Source: a virus
Direction: 5' to 3' (one strand)
IMG/VR virus record: IMGVR_UViG_3300042465_005589
Coordinates: 205,741 to 269,740 of that record
Length of the DNA: 64,000 bases
Positions 3,809-59,204 of the stretch are shown here, piece by piece. The notes beneath the pieces were generated by a model. The model was not told where the DNA came from. It saw only the letters and a list, made by a program, of their open reading frames with translations, and ran no database searches. Numbering within the stretch: the first letter of the stretch is position 1; each line of letters opens with the position of its first letter. Both the position numbers and the translations under genes were made by a program.

Positions 3809-4609
3809 TTACATATATTCATATAACACTGAACTATCATTCCTTAATTTTCGTAAGGCTTTCTCTTTAATTTGTCTAACTCGTTCCTTAGTTAGATTAA
3901 AATCACCTCCAATATCTTCAAGAGTTCTTGGTGTTCCTGTTAAACCAAAATAATCCTCAACAATTACTTTTTCACGGTCATCTAAAACATTTAATAATGT
4001 AATTAGTTTAGCCTTTAATTGGTCCTTACTGTTGAAAGCCTCATCAGGCATATCAGCACCCTCATTTTTAATTATATCAATAAGGGTATCACCATCTTCA
4101 TTGATGTTCATATCTAAATCAATCATTGATGGGAGATTTTGAAACTTATCTTCTAATTTACCACCATTAGACTCAATTTCTTTTTTTGCTCTATGTAAAT
4201 CTTGAACTACATTAACAGGTAGTCTGATTGTACGAGCATTGTCATTTAATGATTGAAGAATTGATTGTTTAACCCACCACACCGCATAAGATATAAATCT
4301 AAGATTCTTTGACCAATCAAAATTATTAATTGCTTTCATCAAACCTAAATTTCCTTCAGCGATTAAATCAGGAAAATCTAACCCTTGATTTTGATACTGT
4401 TTTGCCACAGTAATAACAAATCTTAAATTACCTTCAAGTAATTCTTTATTAATCGCTTTGGTTTCATTTTCTGTAAGTGTCCCTGAAGATATCATTTTAG
4501 ATAATTCACGTTCCCTCTCAGGGGTCATTACTTTAATCTTACGTATATCTTTTAGATATAATTGAATCTCTTCTTGATTAATCGGAATACCCGAGTTTTT
4601 CTCTTTCAT
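3809..4609 (-). CDS. RNA polymerase sigma-70 family factor, RpoD-like
   Basis: The 266-residue protein resembles the short primary sigma factors of Bacteroidota (usually about 285-290 residues, no region 1.1). It has region 1.2 at about 14-45 (LYLKDIRKIKVMTPERE), region 2 at about 58-127 (NLRFVITVAKQYQNQGLDF, then DLIAEGNLGLMKAINNF and the FISYAVWWVKQSI recognition helix area), a shortened region 3 at about 128-185, and region 4 at about 197-257 with the helix-turn-helix TLEDIGGDFNLTKERVRQIK. It should redirect host RNA polymerase to phage promoters, the role gp55 plays in T4. An early-type promoter lies upstream of its partner gene and a terminator follows it. A group-2 stress-type sigma captured from a host is the alternative origin. 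Confidence 0.93.
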   Translation of the reverse strand: MKEKNSGIPINQEEIQLYLKDIRKIKVMTPERERELSKMISSGTLTENETKAINKELLEGNLRFVITVAKQYQNQGLDFPDLIAEGNLGLMKAINNFDWSKNLRFISYAVWWVKQSILQSLNDNARTIRLPVNVVQDLHRAKKEIESNGGKLEDKFQNLPSMIDLDMNINEDGDTLIDIIKNEGADMPDEAFNSKDQLKAKLITLLNVLDDREKVIVEDYFGLTGTPRTLEDIGGDFNLTKERVRQIKEKALRKLRNDSSVLYEYM

Positions 4610-4610
4610 A

Positions 4611-5186
4611 TTAATTTGCGTATTTGTTTAATTGTATTAATTCTTTTTCTGTTAGCGAATTTAAACCTTTTTCTTTAATCTTTTCTAATAAATAATCTAA
4701 AGATGGACTACGTTGTTTATTTTTAATTTCGTCAATGTCAGACCACTCATCTTCATCATAGTCAAAGTCAAAGTCTTCAATGTTTAACATAAAACTTTCT
4801 TTGATTTGGTCTTGTATCATTTTTCGTACCTCAAATTCACTTTTATCTGAAAGTTTTGAATTATCTGACATAAAGTCACTAATACCATCGTTAAAAAGGT
4901 GTTCTGATATTTTTTTAGGTAGACCATATGACAAATTGTCAGATGTGTAAGGTAATAATACGTACATAATATCACCAACACCTAAAATCATATCAACATA
5001 GTCTTTCACGTCCTGATAGGAATCCAATGTTGAGATTGTGAACACAGATGATTCTGGTCCAAAATAAAAATTAAGATTTGGTGTGTCTGAAATAACACAT
5101 AATTCTTCTGCGATTTGTTCTGTAAATTCTTTTGGGTTGTCATTCTTAGCGAAGACAAATAAAATGTATTTGGTTAAACCATCCAT
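4611..5186 (-). CDS. Acidic hypothetical protein co-expressed with sigma factor
   Basis: The 191-residue product starts with a predicted alpha/beta N-terminal part (residues 1-95, KYILFVFAKNDNPKEFTEQIAEE). A strongly acidic stretch follows (about 135-155, DFDFDYDEDEWSDIDE), then a C-terminal helical segment PSLDYLLEKIKEKGLNSLTEKE that recalls short C-terminal helical motifs of other bacterial proteins. No function is recognised. It is the first gene after the promoter at 5218-5248 and ends one base before the sigma ATG, so the two products are made together; a sigma-modulating role is possible but only inferred from position. Confidence 0.7.
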   Translation of the reverse strand: MDGLTKYILFVFAKNDNPKEFTEQIAEELCVISDTPNLNFYFGPESSVFTISTLDSYQDVKDYVDMILGVGDIMYVLLPYTSDNLSYGLPKKISEHLFNDGISDFMSDNSKLSDKSEFEVRKMIQDQIKESFMLNIEDFDFDYDEDEWSDIDEIKNKQRSPSLDYLLEKIKEKGLNSLTEKELIQLNKYAN

Positions 5187-5217: not shown

Positions 5218-5248
5218 CAAAGATACGATAAAAATTATGTTTCCCAAA
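5218..5248 (-). promoter_or_regulatory. Bacteroidota-type promoter for the sigma-factor operon
   Basis: On the minus strand there is TTTG (5245-5248), a spacer, then TATCTTTG (5218-5225), an exact match to the Bacteroidota -7 consensus TAnnTTTG. Counting from the TTG at 5245-5247 the spacer is 19 bases. The start codon is 31 bases after the -7 box, leaving a leader of roughly 25-28 bases. The -33 element sits in the stem of the gp46 terminator. Confidence 0.75.
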
Positions 5249-13459: not shown

Positions 13460-13467
13460 TATTTATT
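13460..13467 (+). promoter_or_regulatory. TATTTATT late-type box before the appendage island
   Basis: TATTTATT, one base off the TATTTATA box, ends 16 bases before the first plus-strand gene. It lies back to back with the primase promoter in an 85-base divergent region. Confidence 0.4.
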
Positions 13468-17138: not shown

Positions 17139-17146
17139 TATTTATA
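17139..17146 (+). promoter_or_regulatory. TATTTATA late-type box before the giant fibre gene
   Basis: An exact TATTTATA lies 18 bases before the ATG at 17165, in the 31-base gap between genes. No TTG is seen at the expected -33 distance. Confidence 0.5.
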
Positions 17147-17164: not shown

Positions 17165-20100
17165 ATGAGATTAACAGATAGAAATTTTCCACCTTACATA
17201 TCACCAGACGCATTAGTTCACATTGTATTAACAGGTGATACGACAGATAGCCCTCAAGGTTCATCCTTTAAAGCTACGATTGGTTCATTAGATAATGCCG
17301 TAATCATAACAGGAACCGGAATTAATTCGTCAGTTAGAAAATCAGTAGGGAATATTGCATCAGGCAATTATTCAGCTGTTTTAGGTGGACAAAATAATTC
17401 AGGGACAACATACTTTTCAACCGTAGTTGGGGGATTTTGTAATATATCATCAGGTTACAACTCATTTATTGGTGGCGGTAAATACAATACCTCTTCTGAT
17501 TATATTTCAACAATTGGTGGTGGTAAATGTAACATTGCCTCTGGTAATACATCAACAATTGGGGGTGGTAGTGGTAATTTTTCTTCTTATTGTCGTTCAA
17601 CAGTTGGGGGAGGCTCATATAACACCGCTTCCGGTAAAGCATCAGTAGTTAGTGGTGGTCAATCTAACACTTCTTCCGGTTTTTATTCAACAATTGGTGG
17701 TGGTAGTGTTAACACAGCGAGTAGTATATCATCAACAGTTGGTGGGGGGCAATATAATATTGCTTGTGGTCAATTTTCTACAATTGGAGGAGGGGGAGGT
17801 TCATATTCATTAATTAGTAATAAAGCGTACGGTATTGGTTCTACAGTCGCAGGTGGGATGAGTAATCAGTCATTAGGTAATTATAGTACAATTGCCGGAG
17901 GTGCTAGTAATTTTAGTCTTTCCGGTACATCTACAATTGGAGGAGGGAGTAACAACTGTTCTACAAATTGTGGTTCCACAATTGGAGGGGGTGGTTTTAA
18001 TACAAGTTCAGGATGTTACTCAACAATTGGTGGTGGAAATAGTAATTTATCAAACGGTAATTGTTCAACAGTTAGTGGTGGTCATTTTAACAAAATATGT
18101 CAATCTCAAAATTATAATAATAATTATTTTTGTTTAGGCGATGTTATTGGGGGAGGAAATTGTAACACCATAAATACAAATACTTATGTTGGTTATACTT
18201 GCACCGGTGGTAACACAATTGGTGGTGGTTACACAAATATTATAACACCATACCTTAACTTTAACACGATTGGTGGTGGTCAAAAAAATAAATCTTACGG
18301 TAATAGTTCAACAATTGCCGGTGGACAGGAAAATATAACTTCCTTTGGTTGTTCAACAATTGGTGGGGGAATTTTAAATGTTGCAACAGGAAATACATCA
18401 ACTATTGCGGGTGGTTGTGGAAACCAAGCAATAAATAGTTTCTCAACAATTGGTGGTGGTACAAATAATATATCATGTTTTCAATCATTTGTTGGTGGAG
18501 GTAGATGTAATAAATCTTTAGGTAGTTATTCCACAATATCAGGAGGTCAAAATAATTGTAATGTTCTCAGCCATTCTGTTATTGGTGGAGGATTTAATAA
18601 TAAAATAACTTGTACATATTCAACAATTGCTGGTGGTAGAAATAATTGTGTATGCGGAACAGATTCTTCAATAGTTGGTGGTTCCGGTAATAGCATCAAT
18701 AGTAATGTATTGAATCCATTTAGGTCAGTAATTGCCGGTGGTGTGAATAATAAATTATGTCAATCATACGGGTTTATTGGAGGTGGTAGAGGCAATCAAA
18801 TATCAGGTACAACTGGTATTGGTGAAGATTCTGTTATTGTCGGTGGATTCTATAATAAAACATATGGTGTTAGAGCAGCAATCTTAGGGGGAGCACTTAA
18901 CTGTTTAGGTTCAAACACTTATGGTAGTGGTCTTGTAAGTGGTAATAATAATAGAATTTCTGTACCATTTGGTATAATTGGTGGAGGACAAGTTAATGTA
19001 ATATGTGGTGACCACTCAATTATTGGTGGTGGTGCGTTAAACTTTATTGGTAATTCATCAGTAACAAACTCATATTACGCAAATAATTGTTCAATAACTT
19101 TATATGGTAATCAGACATCGTCATTTAATGTTAACGACCTTTTACTAACATGGGATTTTAGTTGTTCAAGAAATGTTGTTATAACTGCATCTACGTATTC
19201 GGGCGGATATACTTATTTGGATGTTAGTGGGTCAACAATATTTGTAAATCCATTCACATCGTCCGCTCCAATAATTAGAAATTTAACAGATAGTTTACCA
19301 GGATTCCAAAATAGTTTTATTGGTGGTGGTTACGCAAATACCGTATCCGGAATTACAGGGTTTATAGGTGGAGGAGGTTATAATAAAGTCTCAGGAAATG
19401 GAGGAGTTATTGGTGGTGGTCGTTGTAATATATCAAGTGGTAATCAATCATCGATAACCGGAGGATATGATAACAAATCTATTGGGTGTCAATCATCAAT
19501 CGTTGGTGGTGGTCGTAATTGCTCTATTGGACATTGTTCCTTTATTGGAGCTGGTTCATTCAACACCACATGTAATTATCATTCAACACTTACCGGTGGT
19601 AAGTGCAATATATCATCAGGTAATTATTCATTTATTGGTGGTGGTTCTGGAAATACCGTTTCCGGTGGTGTGTCATTTATTGGTGGGGGTCAATTTAATA
19701 GCGTACAAGGAATTAAATCAACAATTGGTGGAGGATGTAATAATATAATCTTTACATCCGGTTCAACTATAGGTGGTGGTATTACTAACACAATTTGGTC
19801 GCCTAATTCAACAATTACCGGTGGTCTTTCAAATATTATTTGTGCTGCCGCTAGTGATTCCTTTATCGGTGGTGGTGGTTGTAACATTGCATATAGTGGT
19901 AACTCAACAATTAGCGGAGGTTTTCAGAACAAAACATGTAATTGGGTTGCAACAATTGGTGGAGGTTTTAAAAACACTGCGTCAGGTGGTTGTTCAACAA
20001 TTGGAGGTGGTTATAATAACTGCTCAATTGGTGCTTGTTCATTTGTTGGGGGAGGTAGTCAACACAGTGTCGCAGGGTGTGGTTCATCAATAGTTGGTGG

Positions 20101-21055
20101 TTCACTTAATATAATTTCGGGGAACTGTTCAACAATTGGCGGAGGAAATGGAAATATAATTTGCAGCAACATGTCAACAATTGGTGGTGGTTGTCAAAAT
20201 ACAACTTGTGTAAGGTTTTCATTTATAGGAGGTGGTTATAAAAACTGTATAATTTGTCAAACAGCGTATGGATACTCAACAATTGTAGGTGGATGGACAA
20301 ATAGAACTCACGGTGAATCTAACTTTATTGGTGGTGGTCAATTCAACTGCATTGGAACACCTGCGTTATCAGGTTCATCATTCTTATCTGTAATTGTTGG
20401 TGGAAATACAAATGGTGTATGTGATACAGCTTCTTTTATTGGTGGTGGTGATGGAAATGTCGTATTTAGCGGTTCTTCGGCAATAGTTGGTGGAGCCAGT
20501 AATATTTCATGTGCTGAACATTCTTTTATTGGAGGTGGGTGTGCAAACACTGTCACAGGTTGTTATTCATCAATTCTTGGTGGAGCCTATGGATGTGCAC
20601 CTCGTTTTGGACAAAGGTCATTTGCTTCAGGTACTTGGGCTGGCGCTGGTTCAAGAGGTGCGTCACAACAAATTGATTTAGTAGGTAGAAATAAAACAAC
20701 AAGTGGAAGTGCTGTCAACATATTTTTAGATGGGGCAAGTCAACGTATATCCGTAATTGCAGGAACTGCAATGTTTGTTACAATAAATATTGGTGGTATT
20801 AAATCAGATGGTTCTGCAGGAGCTCACTATATAAGAAAAGTCGCAATTAAAAATGTAGGTGGTGCAACTTCTTTAATTGGTGCGAGTCCGGTATCAGTTA
20901 TTGGAACTGATGTGGAAGATAACGCATCTTATGACGTTGCAATTAGTGCTGACAATACTAACGATGCTTTAGATATACAAGTCACAGGAGCTGTTGGTGA
21001 AACTTTAAGATGGACTGTCCATATTGAAGGTGTAGAAATAGTTTACGGAATATAA
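17165..21055 (+). CDS. Giant tail-fibre-like protein with YadA-like beta-roll repeats
   Basis: The 1296-residue protein has a short N-terminal part (1-55, MRLTDRNFPPYISPDALVHI), probably for attachment. A very long run of about 15-residue repeats of the type STIGGGxxNxxSGxx fills residues about 60-1135, as in the left-handed beta-roll heads of trimeric adhesins (YadA). A non-repeat island breaks it at about 636-716. The last 160 residues are a different domain (SFASGTWAGAGSRGASQQ to the end, with ADNTNDALDIQVTG and LRWTVHIEG) of a type seen at the ends of tail fibres. It probably forms a trimeric fibre that touches the cell surface. It has its own late-type box. Confidence 0.85.
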   Translation: MRLTDRNFPPYISPDALVHIVLTGDTTDSPQGSSFKATIGSLDNAVIITGTGINSSVRKSVGNIASGNYSAVLGGQNNSGTTYFSTVVGGFCNISSGYNSFIGGGKYNTSSDYISTIGGGKCNIASGNTSTIGGGSGNFSSYCRSTVGGGSYNTASGKASVVSGGQSNTSSGFYSTIGGGSVNTASSISSTVGGGQYNIACGQFSTIGGGGGSYSLISNKAYGIGSTVAGGMSNQSLGNYSTIAGGASNFSLSGTSTIGGGSNNCSTNCGSTIGGGGFNTSSGCYSTIGGGNSNLSNGNCSTVSGGHFNKICQSQNYNNNYFCLGDVIGGGNCNTINTNTYVGYTCTGGNTIGGGYTNIITPYLNFNTIGGGQKNKSYGNSSTIAGGQENITSFGCSTIGGGILNVATGNTSTIAGGCGNQAINSFSTIGGGTNNISCFQSFVGGGRCNKSLGSYSTISGGQNNCNVLSHSVIGGGFNNKITCTYSTIAGGRNNCVCGTDSSIVGGSGNSINSNVLNPFRSVIAGGVNNKLCQSYGFIGGGRGNQISGTTGIGEDSVIVGGFYNKTYGVRAAILGGALNCLGSNTYGSGLVSGNNNRISVPFGIIGGGQVNVICGDHSIIGGGALNFIGNSSVTNSYYANNCSITLYGNQTSSFNVNDLLLTWDFSCSRNVVITASTYSGGYTYLDVSGSTIFVNPFTSSAPIIRNLTDSLPGFQNSFIGGGYANTVSGITGFIGGGGYNKVSGNGGVIGGGRCNISSGNQSSITGGYDNKSIGCQSSIVGGGRNCSIGHCSFIGAGSFNTTCNYHSTLTGGKCNISSGNYSFIGGGSGNTVSGGVSFIGGGQFNSVQGIKSTIGGGCNNIIFTSGSTIGGGITNTIWSPNSTITGGLSNIICAAASDSFIGGGGCNIAYSGNSTISGGFQNKTCNWVATIGGGFKNTASGGCSTIGGGYNNCSIGACSFVGGGSQHSVAGCGSSIVGGSLNIISGNCSTIGGGNGNIICSNMSTIGGGCQNTTCVRFSFIGGGYKNCIICQTAYGYSTIVGGWTNRTHGESNFIGGGQFNCIGTPALSGSSFLSVIVGGNTNGVCDTASFIGGGDGNVVFSGSSAIVGGASNISCAEHSFIGGGCANTVTGCYSSILGGAYGCAPRFGQRSFASGTWAGAGSRGASQQIDLVGRNKTTSGSAVNIFLDGASQRISVIAGTAMFVTINIGGIKSDGSAGAHYIRKVAIKNVGGATSLIGASPVSVIGTDVEDNASYDVAISADNTNDALDIQVTGAVGETLRWTVHIEGVEIVYGI
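17345..20590 (+). repeat. About 45-base coding repeats of the beta-roll fibre
   Basis: Dozens of diverged units code ATTGGTGGTGGT (IGGG) followed about 20 bases later by AAT/AAC and TCA-GGT codons. Copies at 17480-17700 and 19960-20200 show the pattern most clearly. The island at about 19070-19310 lacks it. Many near-identical stretches could recombine and change fibre length. Confidence 0.85.
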
Positions 21056-21057
21056 AA

Positions 21058-21228
21058 TTATTCCGTTTTTTTACCTAAACCCTCATATATCCTTAAAAGT
21101 TTTAAAGATTCATTGTAGTTTTTTTCTAATCTATCTAATTCTTTTTCGTTGACACCTTTTTCACATGCGTCCTCGTAAATTTTTTTAGATTCAGTTACCA
21201 AATTCGATATTGTTCTAATCAGTTTCAT
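21058..21228 (-). CDS. Small antisense-oriented protein of 56 residues
   Basis: An ATG at 21228 (MKLIRTISNLVTESKKIYED) opens a 56-codon frame that ends with TAA at 21058-21060, two bases past the fibre stop codon on the other strand. The product is a charged helical protein (NEKELDRLEKNYNESLKLLRI). It is the only minus-strand gene inside the plus-strand island and has its own TATTTATA box 4 bases before the ATG. No function can be assigned. Confidence 0.65.
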   Translation of the reverse strand: MKLIRTISNLVTESKKIYEDACEKGVNEKELDRLEKNYNESLKLLRIYEGLGKKTE

Positions 21229-21232
21229 ATTA

Positions 21233-21240
21233 TATAAATA
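21233..21240 (-). promoter_or_regulatory. TATTTATA late-type box for the small antisense gene
   Basis: On the minus strand TATTTATA ends 4 bases before the ATG at 21228. This spacing would give a leaderless transcript. Confidence 0.5.
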
Positions 21241-21306: not shown

Positions 21307-22287
21307 ATGATTTTTGTTACAGCACAACCTGATGTACCTTATTTCCATTGGCAAATAATGGTGTATATACACAACTTTATTGAACATGGTGTTCCTCCAA
21401 ATCAAATCCACGTATTACTTGGAATAATAAATGAAGATGGTAAACCAACTGAAGAATCTTTAAAATTAAAAGATTCCGGAGTTAACGTACATTATTATAT
21501 CGATAATAGACCTCAAAAACATTACATCCCAACAGTTAAACCCTTTTTAATTTCAAAATGGTTAAAAGATTTTCCTGAACATGGTAAATGTTTCTTCTTA
21601 CATGACTCTGACATTATATTCAGAAAATTACCAAATTTTGATAGTTTATTAAATGATGATATTACATATTTATCCGACACAATAGGATATATTGGTTATA
21701 GATATATTATGGATTGTTGTGAACGTTATGAAAATGCTCACCCAACATCAGGTAAAGGTCAATTATTAGAAGAAATGACCGATGTTGTTGGCGTTTCAGT
21801 TGAGTGTATTGAATGTAATCAAGAAAATTCGGGAGGTGGTCAATACTTAATTAAAAACACCGATTGGTTATTATGGGAAAAAATATACGCAGATTGCGTT
21901 CCACTGTATGACCAAATGTTAGACTATCAAAAAAGATTTCCAATTAGTCCAGGCGAAATTCAATTTTGGACCGCCGAGATGTGGTCACTATTATGGAATT
22001 TGTGGTTACATGGAATTGAGACAAAAATAACCCCTGAATTTGATTTTTCATGGGCAACAGATTCAATAAAAATATATGAAGATAAACCTATTCTTCACAT
22101 GGCAGGAGTAACAGATAATCAAAAACAAGATAAATTTTATAAAGGAGATTTTATTAATCTTAACCCATTAGACAAATTAAAAGAGAATATTAATTTTTTC
22201 GATTATGTCAGTTCTCAGAGTTCAACAAAAAAATATGTAGAAGTTATGAAATCTTTGGTGAAAAAACAAATAAAGGATTATTTATAG
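21307..22287 (+). CDS. Glycosyltransferase, possibly a GT-A peptide O-glycosyltransferase
   Basis: The 326-residue protein starts with a nucleotide-binding-like strand (MIFVTAQPDVPYFHWQIMVY) and has a DxD-type metal/sugar-nucleotide motif at Asp100-x-Asp102 (FFLHDSDIIF) preceded by VKPFLISKWL. The order Trp-Gln near the start, then a KP-x-x-WL helix, then DxD resembles plant and algal hydroxyproline/serine O-glycosyltransferases, though this is a by-eye comparison. It sits between Pro-Thr-rich virion genes, so virion proteins are plausible substrates. There is no signal peptide or membrane segment, so it acts in the cytoplasm. An alternative is a transferase that modifies another target. Confidence 0.75.
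   Translation: MIFVTAQPDVPYFHWQIMVYIHNFIEHGVPPNQIHVLLGIINEDGKPTEESLKLKDSGVNVHYYIDNRPQKHYIPTVKPFLISKWLKDFPEHGKCFFLHDSDIIFRKLPNFDSLLNDDITYLSDTIGYIGYRYIMDCCERYENAHPTSGKGQLLEEMTDVVGVSVECIECNQENSGGGQYLIKNTDWLLWEKIYADCVPLYDQMLDYQKRFPISPGEIQFWTAEMWSLLWNLWLHGIETKITPEFDFSWATDSIKIYEDKPILHMAGVTDNQKQDKFYKGDFINLNPLDKLKENINFFDYVSSQSSTKKYVEVMKSLVKKQIKDYL
22279..22286 (+). promoter_or_regulatory. TATTTATA late-type box before an LRR-like appendage gene
   Basis: TATTTATA overlaps the glycosyltransferase stop codon and ends 21 bases before the ATG at 22308. Confidence 0.45.
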
Positions 22288-25591: not shown

Positions 25592-25599
25592 TATTTATA
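25592..25599 (+). promoter_or_regulatory. TATTTATA late-type box before the tail-collar-like gene
   Basis: An exact TATTTATA ends 4 bases before the ATG at 25604. Only A-rich sequence lies upstream and no TTG is seen at the -33 distance. A leaderless start is predicted. Confidence 0.5.
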
Positions 25600-36473: not shown

Positions 36474-36481
36474 GATAAATA
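36474..36481 (-). promoter_or_regulatory. TATTTATC late-type box before the homing endonuclease gene
   Basis: On the minus strand TATTTATC ends 3 bases before the ATG at 36470. T4 homing endonuclease genes also carry their own late promoters, which supports the call. Confidence 0.4.
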
Positions 36482-43300: not shown

Positions 43301-45626
43301 TTATTCTATTAACACCACCTCCCGGATTTACGCCAGGTGAGTTATCAAAATATTTCGCTTTTGTATTAAATAAATTTATTCTTTCCGCCAAAGTTAAATT
43401 AGATGAAAATATATAATCATTTTCTTGACTACCATTAAGTTCATAAACTATTTCCTGTACTTTGGGAATACCAACACTATTATCGCTATCACCAGCAGGT
43501 ATTTTACCTGAATATATTGATGTAACAGCATTTTTTATATAAGATTCTACTGAATTACCTGGAATTTTATATAAAGGACTACTAACACCTAACAAAACTA
43601 AAGATGACGATAACGCATTATCCGGTTTAGGGTCAAGATATATATACGGACAAGGAAATTCCTCAGTTGAATCACCTGAAATATCTGAAACGGAAGCCGT
43701 GGCATCTTCACTCACAGTACCTTCAGTACTTGGTGTTTGACCAACAGAACAATCGCATAAATCACAATCCGGATAAGTCAACATAGGCAATGAAATACCT
43801 TTTAAATCCATCTTCCATAATTCCTTTAATATAATAACAAAAGCCGCAATAAGTAATATATAAAGAATAATTTGAAGAAGATACCCAACAATTAAACCTA
43901 ACGCATATGGTACCGTTCCAACAACTAAAATTGCCGTATTAATTATTTGTACAGTATAATAAAGTATTAACGCAGGTATCACTAATATTCTAAGCAACAT
44001 TATTGTAAAATATAATAAGTGCATAGTTATTAATAATCCATACAGTACGGGTCTAAATACCATCATTAAAAATGAGTATAAAATATAAATTATATCAAAT
44101 CTCATATTGGAATCGTTTGTTGGAAATTTGTTGTTTTCACTATTACAACTATCATCTAATATATTTTTAATCCCAATAAATCTATCAGGTGTTATACCTT
44201 TTCTAAATTTATCAACTAACTGAGATACCGTATAAACTTTATTGTATTGCATTACATAAAATTTATCGTCACAATCAATCGCCTCTTGAATCATTTGACG
44301 ACCAATATTTGCACCACTACTATTAGACGTACCTGTATATCCATAATCAGCCCAATCTAAACTAAACGCGTATGATTTCATAGCCAAGTCATACGGTGAA
44401 TTTAATGCTCTATTAGAATCACTCAATGGGTCTGAACCACTACTAGTCCACCCATGTTCTCTAACATTTGGTACAATAAAGTAACCTCTTTTAATTTGTT
44501 CTGATAATGATGGTGACTGGTCCCATTTTACTTTAAAACGACATTTGGCTCTTGTTGGAACACCTTTTTTAGGGTCGTTTGATAAAACTTGTTCACCAAA
44601 TTCATTTGTAATGTAATAATCCAAATTCATTGGGATATCAATTAACCATGTCCCATTTGAATCAATTACTTTACCACCCTCATCTAAATCAAAAGATTCC
44701 AATATTGGTCTACCATATTCATCTTGGAATATTGTTTGACGTATACCTAAAATTTCTCCGGGACCCGTTGTTAAACTACATAAATAACCCGCATTACCCC
44801 TAACTTGACAGGTTCGTTTTAAAGCATCATCATCAGTTGTAGAAACTATGGAACCCATAAAAATAGCTGTAGGATTAATGTCAATCCCTGCTTCAGATGA
44901 CAAATCAAAATCAGTTCTTGTAATCCCTAAATTACATATTTGAGGTTGCCCCCATAAAGGTTCAACTTCAACTGTTCTATTAATTGTAACAATTTGAGGT
45001 AAACTTCTTAAATTTGTCGATGATTTAAATGTAACGCCCGCAACTTGTGATGGTGTTGCAATACCCATTCTTATTAAATCTTGAGGCGATAATGAAAATT
45101 CACCAATATCCGATAAATCAATATCAACAACAATTGTTTGACTACCGGTTGGTAATCCAAATATCATATAATCACCACTTGTATTAGTTACTGTGGAAAA
45201 TTTATAGTACTTATCATAAACTTGGATTAATGTTGGGTCAACTAACACATCTTTTCTAGTGAAAAAAGTTCCTGTTGGTATATGACCACTATGGGATTGT
45301 GTATAAGGTAATAAATTATAACGATATCCGTCATCATTAAGGTCGGAAAGTGATTTATATGGATATAACTCGGAAATTACGGGGTCTAATTCATCAGTAC
45401 TATCTAATGGTACAAATATTGAAACTTTAGCATTTGGGATACCAAAACCATTATTAACACTAACTCTACCAACAAGTACTCCGTAATCAGAGCATTGTCT
45501 AGTGTAAATTTGACTTTGTAATATTTTTAGAGATAATATTTCTAAATACTCAAATTCTTGGTCTATCAAGACATTAAGTGATTTATCAACACCAGGCTCA
45601 GTTCTTATTCTAAATGAATTGGACAT
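40338..45626 (-). CDS. Giant virion structural protein with carboxypeptidase-regulatory-like domain and hydrophobic block
   Basis: The 1762-residue protein begins MSNSFRIRTEPGVDKSLNV. A segment at about 48-170 (GVLVGRVSVNNGFGIPNAKV to GDYMIFGLPTGSQTIVVDI) looks like a transthyretin/carboxypeptidase-regulatory beta sandwich. At about 510-607 a hydrophobic block could form four or five membrane helices (for example ILYSFLMMVFRPVLYGLLI). The remaining 1100 residues are beta-rich with no recognised domain. A late-type box lies upstream and the gene starts the baseplate operon of five proteins. It may be a hub- or fibre-anchoring component that touches the host membrane during DNA injection; this is inference. 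Confidence 0.75.
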   Translation of the reverse strand: MSNSFRIRTEPGVDKSLNVLIDQEFEYLEILSLKILQSQIYTRQCSDYGVLVGRVSVNNGFGIPNAKVSIFVPLDSTDELDPVISELYPYKSLSDLNDDGYRYNLLPYTQSHSGHIPTGTFFTRKDVLVDPTLIQVYDKYYKFSTVTNTSGDYMIFGLPTGSQTIVVDIDLSDIGEFSLSPQDLIRMGIATPSQVAGVTFKSSTNLRSLPQIVTINRTVEVEPLWGQPQICNLGITRTDFDLSSEAGIDINPTAIFMGSIVSTTDDDALKRTCQVRGNAGYLCSLTTGPGEILGIRQTIFQDEYGRPILESFDLDEGGKVIDSNGTWLIDIPMNLDYYITNEFGEQVLSNDPKKGVPTRAKCRFKVKWDQSPSLSEQIKRGYFIVPNVREHGWTSSGSDPLSDSNRALNSPYDLAMKSYAFSLDWADYGYTGTSNSSGANIGRQMIQEAIDCDDKFYVMQYNKVYTVSQLVDKFRKGITPDRFIGIKNILDDSCNSENNKFPTNDSNMRFDIIYILYSFLMMVFRPVLYGLLITMHLLYFTIMLLRILVIPALILYYTVQIINTAILVVGTVPYALGLIVGYLLQIILYILLIAAFVIILKELWKMDLKGISLPMLTYPDCDLCDCSVGQTPSTEGTVSEDATASVSDISGDSTEEFPCPYIYLDPKPDNALSSSLVLLGVSSPLYKIPGNSVESYIKNAVTSIYSGKIPAGDSDNSVGIPKVQEIVYELNGSQENDYIFSSNLTLAERINLFNTKAKYFDNSPGVNPGGGVNRIKVTFDPDNNPPTQTTNFHYDNTIVILCDKNSLSSLSVGQMISFQNPTLTKDINLFSGVTNSYGNQAISGFTSTGMTQVSFYYANPNLAGTPVQINYNVMLTGSTEFTGTTNGYNNYYKFPMDLEYFQVITGMTYSEFSGQCGTSIPNSLNERFLFNEMFLQRWAGGGQITPGCWVGDYTKDGSQDFPILKKPINYLKDPDQQCVLILNRGVDPNVPRVKIRYDLNILFGKNLGSDPSLIIEGNYKMNYPIQGKFKNVSHDENNLPNNLATDSYSGEKLYFDTFDFTADTPSFSSFTSPLFSYYSKLDNNALTYKPSCPPPPNGLEDPLPVSYGAQASSVYGLNVIGQNDFTKEWNAPVTVNIYPYPSSPECTSYNPVSNGNGSDTNTNRGYYVGEIVEGGSLAYMRLTVGLPTNYSYDWTGNYFAPIYDTTGNTLTYILTSNDNNRMVMRSDRLPTSTTVEQTCCNGFSLQHNSSFMMYDIPDEGLVGIDTAVSAASTGGGGASQDLTGDTQNFTNSVIDSFTCSGSVPLECYGDDGNGNIVINHGGCEEYNGETIFQGGCYIVVTTVFVSLLRDFGLLTEWISRSSINLGACRNVWSHIFANNWINGTLYAYSFHNDVTYGSPFGNQPNVPNSEFCTDTLVLHPTNNFYYRCSPYKDSTGIFIGKDRPSSSSFSNAQGDNFNYLLTPTTLIDLGPRSAYLQELVMSDAYDGYVANKLSTTTYGNVTEILNLLIISRLINKSFIDQMLQFLVGSNITAYFSRVKYKVDGDYSQLISINSELGVSPFESLNYPDNPFPQQNPVYWNGFASDSAVIGIFFSSDTQTRDFITPKRTIVDNTVPANSPCGFSYFDAFSQTVPFYQWRIEELSSKPSIFGKEDNGWNTDPINGDGSFLSLKYQSMDRIETTSRYFRGTANNSSETNYYKGYIFAVNNLGQIDENISNWDKNNPEPDSVTVGAPFHFYFGLKKGASAFDRFTTKWIDTTTFVN

Positions 45627-45639
45627 AATAATCTTTTTT

Positions 45640-45647
45640 AATAAATA
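45640..45647 (-). promoter_or_regulatory. TATTTATT late-type box before the giant structural gene
   Basis: On the minus strand TATTTATT ends 13 bases before the ATG at 45626, in a 74-base gene-free gap that otherwise shows only AT-rich sequence. Confidence 0.4.
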
Positions 45648-48513: not shown

Positions 48514-48972
48514 TTAAATATTTAGGATTACAAAATCACTAGCGTTAAACACGTCATTATTTATTTGATAATCTATTTTAACTTTCGCAGTATGTTCTTT
48601 AGTTCCAATACCCGGTACTCTAAAAACACGAGTATCGTATTGGTCAACATAAGTACCTTTATCTTCTTCACCATCAGACGCTGCGGTGATACTTATATTT
48701 TTTATTGTTATTCCCGGTATATATTCTTCAACAGCATCTCTAATTTCCGCATCAATATCTGAAAAGGTTGGACCATCTAATGGTTCAAAAATAAATTCAT
48801 ATAGTCTTGTTCCAAAATCGGGTAAAAAATATCTACTTCCTTTTCTAGTTAATAATAAATGTATTAAATCCGTTCTTGTTTCTTGAGTACTGTCTGTAGA
48901 AAGGTCTAAATACTTCCCATCATAAGAATCCCTAAAAGGGAAATTAATACCATATGTTTTTCCATCTGCCAT
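48514..48972 (-). CDS. gp25: Baseplate wedge protein gp25-like (GPW/gp25 family)
   Basis: The 152-residue protein has the gp25 family pattern: GINFPFRDSYDGKYLDL, then LIHLLLTRKGSRYFLPDFGT, then IRDAVEEYIPGITIKNISI. In T4 gp25 is a wedge core protein that contacts the sheath initiator. I chose the ATG at 48972; a GTG start at 49029 would add an unlikely 19-residue leader (IFYFTLFIRNNYDTIF) lying over a promoter. A late-type box ends 3 bases before this ATG. The gene directly precedes gp6. Confidence 0.92.
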   Translation of the reverse strand: MADGKTYGINFPFRDSYDGKYLDLSTDSTQETRTDLIHLLLTRKGSRYFLPDFGTRLYEFIFEPLDGPTFSDIDAEIRDAVEEYIPGITIKNISITAASDGEEDKGTYVDQYDTRVFRVPGIGTKEHTAKVKIDYQINNDVFNASDFVILNI

Positions 48973-48975
48973 ATC

Positions 48976-48983
48976 TATAAATA
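48976..48983 (-). promoter_or_regulatory. TATTTATA late-type box immediately before gp25
   Basis: On the minus strand TATTTATA ends 3 bases before the ATG at 48972. Leaderless transcription of gp25-gp6 is predicted. Confidence 0.5.
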
Positions 48984-49012
48984 TAGTGTCATAATTATTT
49001 CTTATAAATAGA

Positions 49013-53843: not shown

Positions 53844-53851
53844 AATAAATA
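53844..53851 (-). promoter_or_regulatory. TATTTATT box before the helicase gene
   Basis: On the minus strand TATTTATT ends 20 bases before the ATG, in a 28-base gap. It may be chance or a weak promoter; a late box is not expected before a replication gene. Confidence 0.25.
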
Positions 53852-56209: not shown

Positions 56210-56217
56210 AATAAATA
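56210..56217 (-). promoter_or_regulatory. TATTTATT box before the RHH-HNH pair
   Basis: On the minus strand TATTTATT ends 3 bases before the ATG at 56206. It would make the mobile pair a separate late transcription unit. Confidence 0.4.
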
Positions 56218-58193: not shown

Positions 58194-58218
58194 AGTGTTT
58201 AAAATATTTAAAGGTTTA

Positions 58219-58252
58219 TAAAAGTATAAGTGTCAGCCGTGTGTTTGTCAAA
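58219..58252 (-). promoter_or_regulatory. Possible promoter for the ssDNA-binding protein gene
   Basis: On the minus strand TTTGACA (TTTG at 58249-58252) is followed by TACTTTTA (58219-58226, one mismatch from TAnnTTTG) with a 22-base spacer after TTG, slightly long for the consensus. It directly follows a terminator, which favours a real start point. Confidence 0.4.
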
Positions 58253-58261
58253 TTGTTTTGT

Positions 58262-58288
58262 AAAAAAAAATGGTCCGGAGACCATTTT
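58262..58288 (-). terminator. Intrinsic terminator after the Pro/Ala-rich gene
   Basis: A 9-bp stem (58267-58275 with 58280-58288) with a 4-base loop lies 2 bases after the stop at 58291; the minus strand continues with nine T residues counting the stem edge. Confidence 0.9.
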
Positions 58289-58290
58289 AA

Positions 58291-59196: not shown

Positions 59197-59204
59197 TATA
59201 AATA
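59197..59204 (-). promoter_or_regulatory. TATTTATA late-type box before the small hypothetical gene
   Basis: On the minus strand TATTTATA ends 11 bases before the ATG at 59185, in the 43-base gap after the hub-like gene. Confidence 0.45.

Follow-up and report, generated by a model that had tools for sequence, protein, structure and literature searches.

The DNA analysed here, hereafter the window, is a 64,000-nucleotide stretch (G000:C1:205741-269740) of a 318,164-bp IMG/VR phage record that we refer to as G000. Because the record carries no annotation, we called genes throughout G000 with our own dicodon-model script, which returned 386 genes. At 3809-4609 on the minus strand, the window encodes a 266-amino-acid RpoD-like sigma factor, recognised by Pfam, by phrog_351 and by alignment with cellular RpoD. 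Sigma70 regions 1.2, 2 and 4 scored above the Pfam cut-offs, which bears out the likeness to the Bacteroidota primary sigma factor that the initial annotation had pointed out. The DNA-contact stretches in regions 2.4 and 4.2 are near-identical to those of cellular RpoD, and about 23 residues of region 3.1 (the second half of region 3) are missing relative to the cellular protein. No other protein of G000 scores above threshold as a sigma factor, and none matches Sigma70_r2 as strongly. Its 51 distinct phage orthologues are all 266 amino acids long, and the best 80 of 345 related loci show 78-100% identity. Identity to the nearest cellular proteins is 43%, and the phage proteins form a group of their own.

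Directly upstream of the sigma gene and in the same transcription unit lies a partner gene (4611-5186, minus strand) encoding 191 amino acids with a C-terminal DUF6576. The partner adjoins the sigma gene in 50 of 51 relatives and diverges quickly, with the C-terminal DUF6576 stretch conserved; its product may act as an anti-sigma factor or in an accessory role. The unit is preceded by a host-type promoter sequence, TTTG-N19-TATCTTTG, at 5218-5248 on the minus strand. Most of the 51 distinct relatives have a similar site some 515-640 bp ahead of the sigma gene. The -7 box of Bacteroidota sigma-A is TAnnTTTG (PMC9723704), and the conservation of a promoter of host type suggests that host sigma-A polymerase probably transcribes the RpoD-like sigma gene early. 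The 10 kb on either side of the 80 sigma loci held mostly early genes and were uninformative, so we compared whole relatives instead.

The initial annotation had reported exact copies of the octamer TATTTATA before several genes of the window, and all seven sites were found where it had placed them. They lie at 17139-17146 (plus strand, 18 nt before the gene at 17165), 21233-21240 (minus, 4 nt before the start of the gene at 21228-21058), 22279-22286 (plus, 21 nt before 22308), 25592-25599 (plus, 4 nt before 25604), 48976-48983 and 49003-49010 (both minus, 3 nt and 30 nt before the gp25-like baseplate-wedge gene at 48972), and 59197-59204 (minus, 11 nt before 59185). The one-base variants that it had reported before four further genes were likewise present: TATTTATT at 13460-13467 (plus, 16 nt before 13484), at 45640-45647 (minus, 13 nt before a 1762-amino-acid gene at 45626) and at 56210-56217 (minus, 3 nt before 56206), and TATTTATC at 36474-36481 (minus, 3 nt before 36470). 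Another copy of TATTTATT, at 53844-53851 on the minus strand, lies 20 nt before the start of the replicative helicase gene (53823). The boxes before the baseplate-wedge gene (the copy at 48976-48983), the helicase gene and 59185 are kept in two relatives, G003 and G007. The gene at 17165-21055 (plus strand) encodes a 1296-amino-acid protein with dozens of GGG..N..SG..S(T/F)IGGG repeats, which is probably a long repetitive fibre or adhesin.

Counted over the whole window, TATTTATA is of ordinary frequency (22 copies versus 17.7 expected, a number reached by 15 of 100 shuffles), so we assessed chance in upstream non-coding DNA instead. A genome-wide count, which the initial annotation had put forward as a check, gave 69 copies in the upstream non-coding DNA of the whole phage versus 10.4 expected from a second-order Markov model, and 26 copies of the reverse complement in the same DNA. 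For motif work we used a set of 231 non-coding upstream regions of G000, in which the sense count of TATTTATA was 60 (8.05 expected), versus 20 for the T4 octamer TATAAATA. The enrichment recurred independently in G003 (50 versus 7.3 expected) and G007 (41 versus 5.8). Expectation-maximisation motif discovery on the 231 regions reached ATATTTAT, that is, (A)TATTTATA, whether it was seeded with the T4 octamer or with other A/T sequences; a run on 150-nt upstream segments, coding DNA included, had drifted to codon patterns, and non-coding DNA was used in its place. The extended box reads (A/C)TATTTATA-N3-AAA, with its A-run spanning positions +11 to +13. Our text searches of the literature found no paper reporting TATTTATA as a phage late promoter.

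Sequence 5′ of the boxes holds little information beyond a weak A/T patch. The lack of a -33 element, noted in the initial annotation, is seen genome-wide: TTTG occurs near that spacing in 5-11% of boxes. The roughly 40 TAnnTTTG sites of the phage, unlike the boxes, show a TTTG-like element at -33-type spacing, and a motif search after masking the boxes left this host-type combination as the one remaining class. A candidate third promoter class, TTGACA-N17-TATACT before the SSB gene, turned out to be a single conserved site and no class. That leader, at 58194-58290 on the minus strand upstream of the SSB gene (58193), has the conserved form TTGAC(A/T)-N17-TATA(C/T)T with CGGCTGACAC in between, and occurs once per genome in G000, G003 and G007; it resembles a classical sigma-70 promoter, or else an operator, and differs from the other promoters of the phage.

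Among the 133 genes that start no more than 10 nt after the gene before them, just 1 is boxed, versus 35 of 62 divergent starts (p about 1e-20), placing the boxes at the heads of transcription units. They precede genes for the prohead protease, portal, scaffold, sheath, tube and neck, as well as baseplate wedge, hub and tape-measure-like genes. Boxes were found before 9 of 12 virion genes versus 2 of 17 genes of DNA metabolism and related functions (p = 0.0013). Because those two are the replicative helicase and the family B polymerase, the regulon holds more than virion genes, and the label 'late' is fair without being absolute. Some boxes lie 30-60 nt upstream of the start codon and are conserved at that distance. 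The late promoters of T4 consist of an 8-bp box with no -35 element and are read by gp55 (PMC2988020). The sequence features of the boxes argue that they are a genome-wide set of putative late promoters of the T4 late type.

Box-to-start-codon spacing in G000 has a bimodal distribution, the values being either 2-5 nt or within a broad peak at 12-22 nt. Among the short-spacing boxes, 20 lie at exactly 3 nt and 12 at 2, 4 or 5 nt, with none at 6-8 nt, a gap that would have a probability of 3e-7 if spacing were uniform; G003 and G007 have one site each within it. The spacing class is retained among orthologues in 16 of 23 leaderless-type and 38 of 51 leadered cases. Leadered boxes have an A-run 11-13 nt past the first T, the place taken by the A of the ATG in leaderless boxes. 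A start site near position 11 would account for both spacing classes and for the absence of 3-5 nt leaders. Transcription would thus begin about 11 nt past the first T of the box. For roughly two thirds of the boxes this would leave a short, A-rich leader; for the remaining third or so the start would coincide, or nearly so, with the first base of the start codon, an A, and the message would be leaderless. In the window, the boxes at 21233, 25592, 36474, 48976 and 56210 belong to the leaderless class, and the class of the boxes at 25592 and 48976 is kept in G003 and G007. Between relatives, identity of leaderless-class proteins is 0.56 over residues 2-11 versus 0.42 over residues 12-41, and this conservation of the N termini indicates that their start codons are probably genuine.

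The N termini of the leaderless-class proteins have a further peculiarity. An [ILV][TS]E motif is present in 13 of 30 of them versus 9% of box-less genes (for example, MKLIITESQM and MKLIESIRQIITEASKK). Examples are 116303-116542, 140618-141457, 147671-148075 and 170451-172055 of G000 and 21058-21228 of the window, all on the minus strand. It is reminiscent of the capsid-targeting/prohead-protease site found in the internal head proteins of T4, and the proteins that have it may be packaged in the virion.

The caveat in the initial annotation that another factor could be encoded elsewhere in the genome proved apt. Outside the window, at G000:C1:28630-29379 on the plus strand, lies a cryptic gene for a gp55-like sigma factor of 249 amino acids, which overlaps the end of the preceding gene and is missed at standard family cut-offs. 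It is orthologous to 78174-78872 of the cultured Flavobacterium phage immuto. The profile phrog_234, which represents the T4 late sigma family, matched the copies from G000, G003 and immuto separately and 11 of the 19 members of the gp55-like family, and an HMM of that family found T4 gp55 at E = 1.8e-4 and the copy in phage Mel-JY01 at 1.8e-32. Many orthologues gave weak matches to Sigma70_r2, and single-sequence matches were weak (E about 0.001-0.02). An AlphaFold2 model of the protein was of middling quality (pLDDT 71, pTM 0.43); its residues 30-131 superimposed on domain 2 of sigma-E at 2.6 A over 91 residues with a Z of 8.1, a value that for a helical domain is not decisive alone. Searching solved structures by sequence with the gp55-like protein gave no match, Foldseek alone on the model gave no significant match, and no relatives emerged when viral sequences were scanned with the Mel-JY01 gp55. 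The recurrence of the signal in many sequences suggests that the protein is a remote homologue of T4 gp55.

Other parts of the T4 late system were sought in G000. The gp33 co-activator profile PF16805 had no match in the genome, and neither PF02916 nor phmmer with T4 gp45 found a sliding clamp; divergent forms of either protein could escape these searches. The family alignment of the gp55-like proteins holds no conserved counterpart of the hydrophobic/acidic C-terminal segment with which gp55 binds the clamp. Because all three were not found, we call the protein gp55-like and do not present it as a member of a full clamp-activated T4 system. In a test for a phage multisubunit RNA polymerase of phiKZ type, the beta-subunit profile PF00562, which matched 14 of 14 control genomes, had no match in G000, where divergent phage subunits could escape detection.

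Phages that have the box without a detectable RpoD-like sigma bear directly on which factor reads it. The comparison set comprised immuto (reached through the portal gene), Mel-JY01 and six uncultivated immuto-like contigs (found by their gp55-like copy), in none of which was an above-threshold RpoD-like sigma detected; the absence can be stated more firmly for immuto, Mel-JY01 and the two roughly 160-kb contigs than for the other four contigs, which are short. Immuto has the virion core and several replication genes in common with the window's phage. TATTTATA occurred 19 times in immuto versus 2.5 expected, with the extended motif preceding the terminase, portal, tube and tape measure genes, and 12 times in Mel-JY01 versus 2.4 expected. 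Observed versus expected counts in the six contigs were 18 and 2.3, 23 and 3.6, 5 and 1.3, 5 and 1.0, 11 and 1.0, and 5 and 0.9, giving 98 versus 15.1 for the eight phages pooled. The leaderless class is rare among these phages. What the window's phage and its box-bearing RpoD-less relatives do have in common is the gp55-like gene. A different pattern was seen in the Tenacibaculum phage pT24, also a phage of Bacteroidota: TATTTATA showed no excess (4 versus 5.9 expected), the T4 octamer TATAAATA showed a modest one (16 versus 6.1), and the pT24 gp55 scored closer to that of T4 (1.4e-7). In this small sample the octamer thus tracks the type of gp55 and neither the host phylum nor the RpoD-like sigma.

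These relatives yielded two further observations. In the immuto-like phages (immuto, G018, G019 and G020) a strong upstream motif, roughly GTAT(A/C)TTTAGGTATCAA and often with AAAGTT(C/G) nearby, stands in place of TAnnTTTG; it is probably an early promoter of these phages or a repeat family. Mel-JY01 (PP395634.1) was deposited as a Microcystis phage, but the genes it has for portal, capsid, sheath, tube and gp55 are related to those of these Bacteroidota phages, and its host assignment may need revisiting.

From these results we infer, with a probability of roughly 70%, that the boxes serve as late promoters in a lineage of T4-related myoviruses with Bacteroidota-type hosts and are read by the gp55-like sigma, the RpoD-like sigma being separate. 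Host core RNA polymerase together with the phage gp55-like sigma would read the boxes. The late switch envisaged in the initial annotation is thereby supported in its main features, namely a promoter set that lies mainly before virion genes and a phage sigma factor as its likely reader. Its choice of the RpoD-like sigma at 3809-4609 as that reader was not supported.

Four other readings of the boxes have less in their favour. It is unlikely that the boxes are promoters whose reader is a host factor, sigma-A or another one, that some phage protein redirects. TATTTAT does have TA..T.T in common with TAnnTTTG, and phage co-activators that alter promoter choice exist, such as MotA and AsiA of T4; however, the lack of the box in pT24 argues that it is no general host promoter, and the gp55 homologue common to the box-bearing phages is a simpler reader. 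We think it quite improbable that the RpoD-like sigma itself reads TATTTATA, perhaps after displacing the gp55-like protein in this clade. That it is one of two sigma factors in the genome and has the stronger domain match, that it is highly conserved among the best-matching loci, and that the loss of region 3.1 could alter its specificity would all fit such a role. Against it, the eight relatives without a detectable copy have the same box together with a gp55 homologue, and the checked phages with both the box and the RpoD-like sigma also have a gp55-like gene. Moreover, regions 2.4 and 4.2, being nearly those of host RpoD, suit TTTG/TAnnTTTG promoters with -33 and -7 elements, whereas the boxes have no -33 element. 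A division of the boxed regulon between the two sigma factors, with the RpoD-like protein reading or favouring the leaderless promoters and the gp55-like protein the leadered ones, is very improbable; the rarity of the leaderless class in RpoD-less phages makes a link between that class and the RpoD-like sigma possible, and a true division would mean a phage with a dedicated class of leaderless messages. Least probable of all is that the boxes are A/T-rich ribosome-recruiting elements instead of promoters. Their closeness to start codons would fit this reading, as would the A-richness that box-less genes also show at -14 to -10, and PMC6847099 describes Bacteroidota as initiating without Shine-Dalgarno sequences in Kozak-like contexts, yet such signals would mark intra-operon genes too, the two spacing classes with their empty gap fit a fixed transcription start, and the boxes at 30-60 nt are conserved at that distance.

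If the gp55-like sigma reads the boxes, the RpoD-like sigma would have another task. Its host-like contact regions lead us to think that it acts at host-type promoters, perhaps maintaining them once the host sigma factor is disabled; we put this forward tentatively, at rather less than even odds. It would steer host core polymerase to TTTG/TAnnTTTG promoters before the gp55-like sigma takes over, replacing or supplementing host sigma-A.

The proposed arrangement would extend T4-type late transcription to a large lineage, the Bacteroidota-type freshwater jumbo phages and the immuto-like phages, in which the octamer differs and annotation has overlooked the late sigma factor. It would offer a compact test case for how gp55 specificity evolves (TATAAATA versus TATTTATA) and for whether late promoters can function without the T4 clamp activator. 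It also predicts that about a third of the boxes give leaderless messages, versus only 5.5% of mapped messages in Flavobacterium psychrophilum (PMC9723704). A caution follows as well: an obvious RpoD-like sigma beside a promoter set need not read that set.

Three known systems invite comparison. Like the late promoters of T4 (PMC2988020), the boxes are 8-bp A/T sequences about one helical turn before the likely start, with no -35 conservation and an A/T-rich segment just downstream, and they serve mainly virion genes on both strands; as in T4 gp55, the only domain recognisable in the gp55-like protein is an apparent sigma-2-like one. Unlike in T4, the octamer is TATTTATA (two central positions differ from TATAAATA), gp33, gp45 and a clamp-binding C-terminal segment were not detected, the C-terminal region of the gp55-like protein is longer, and there are an apparent leaderless class and an extra RpoD-like sigma. 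RpoD-like sigma factors are known in T4-related (group 2) jumbo phages (PMC7824862), which the window's phage resembles in its near-complete RpoD-like sigma, its relatedness to T4 and the failure to find an RNA polymerase of its own; unlike the sigmas of those phages, the one here reaches at best about 43% identity with Bacteroidota RpoD, has no region 3.1 and lies in one unit with the conserved DUF6576 partner gene. With Bacteroidota sigma-A/RpoD, which uses TTTG/TAnnTTTG at -33/-7, it has in common regions 1.2, 2 and 4 and the near-identical DNA-contact stretches; unlike sigma-A, it is a phage protein of a separate group with part of region 3 deleted. New against this background are the altered octamer, a gp55 homologue that had gone unrecognised in a large lineage, the apparently leaderless third of the boxed genes and the pairing of two sigma factors in one phage.
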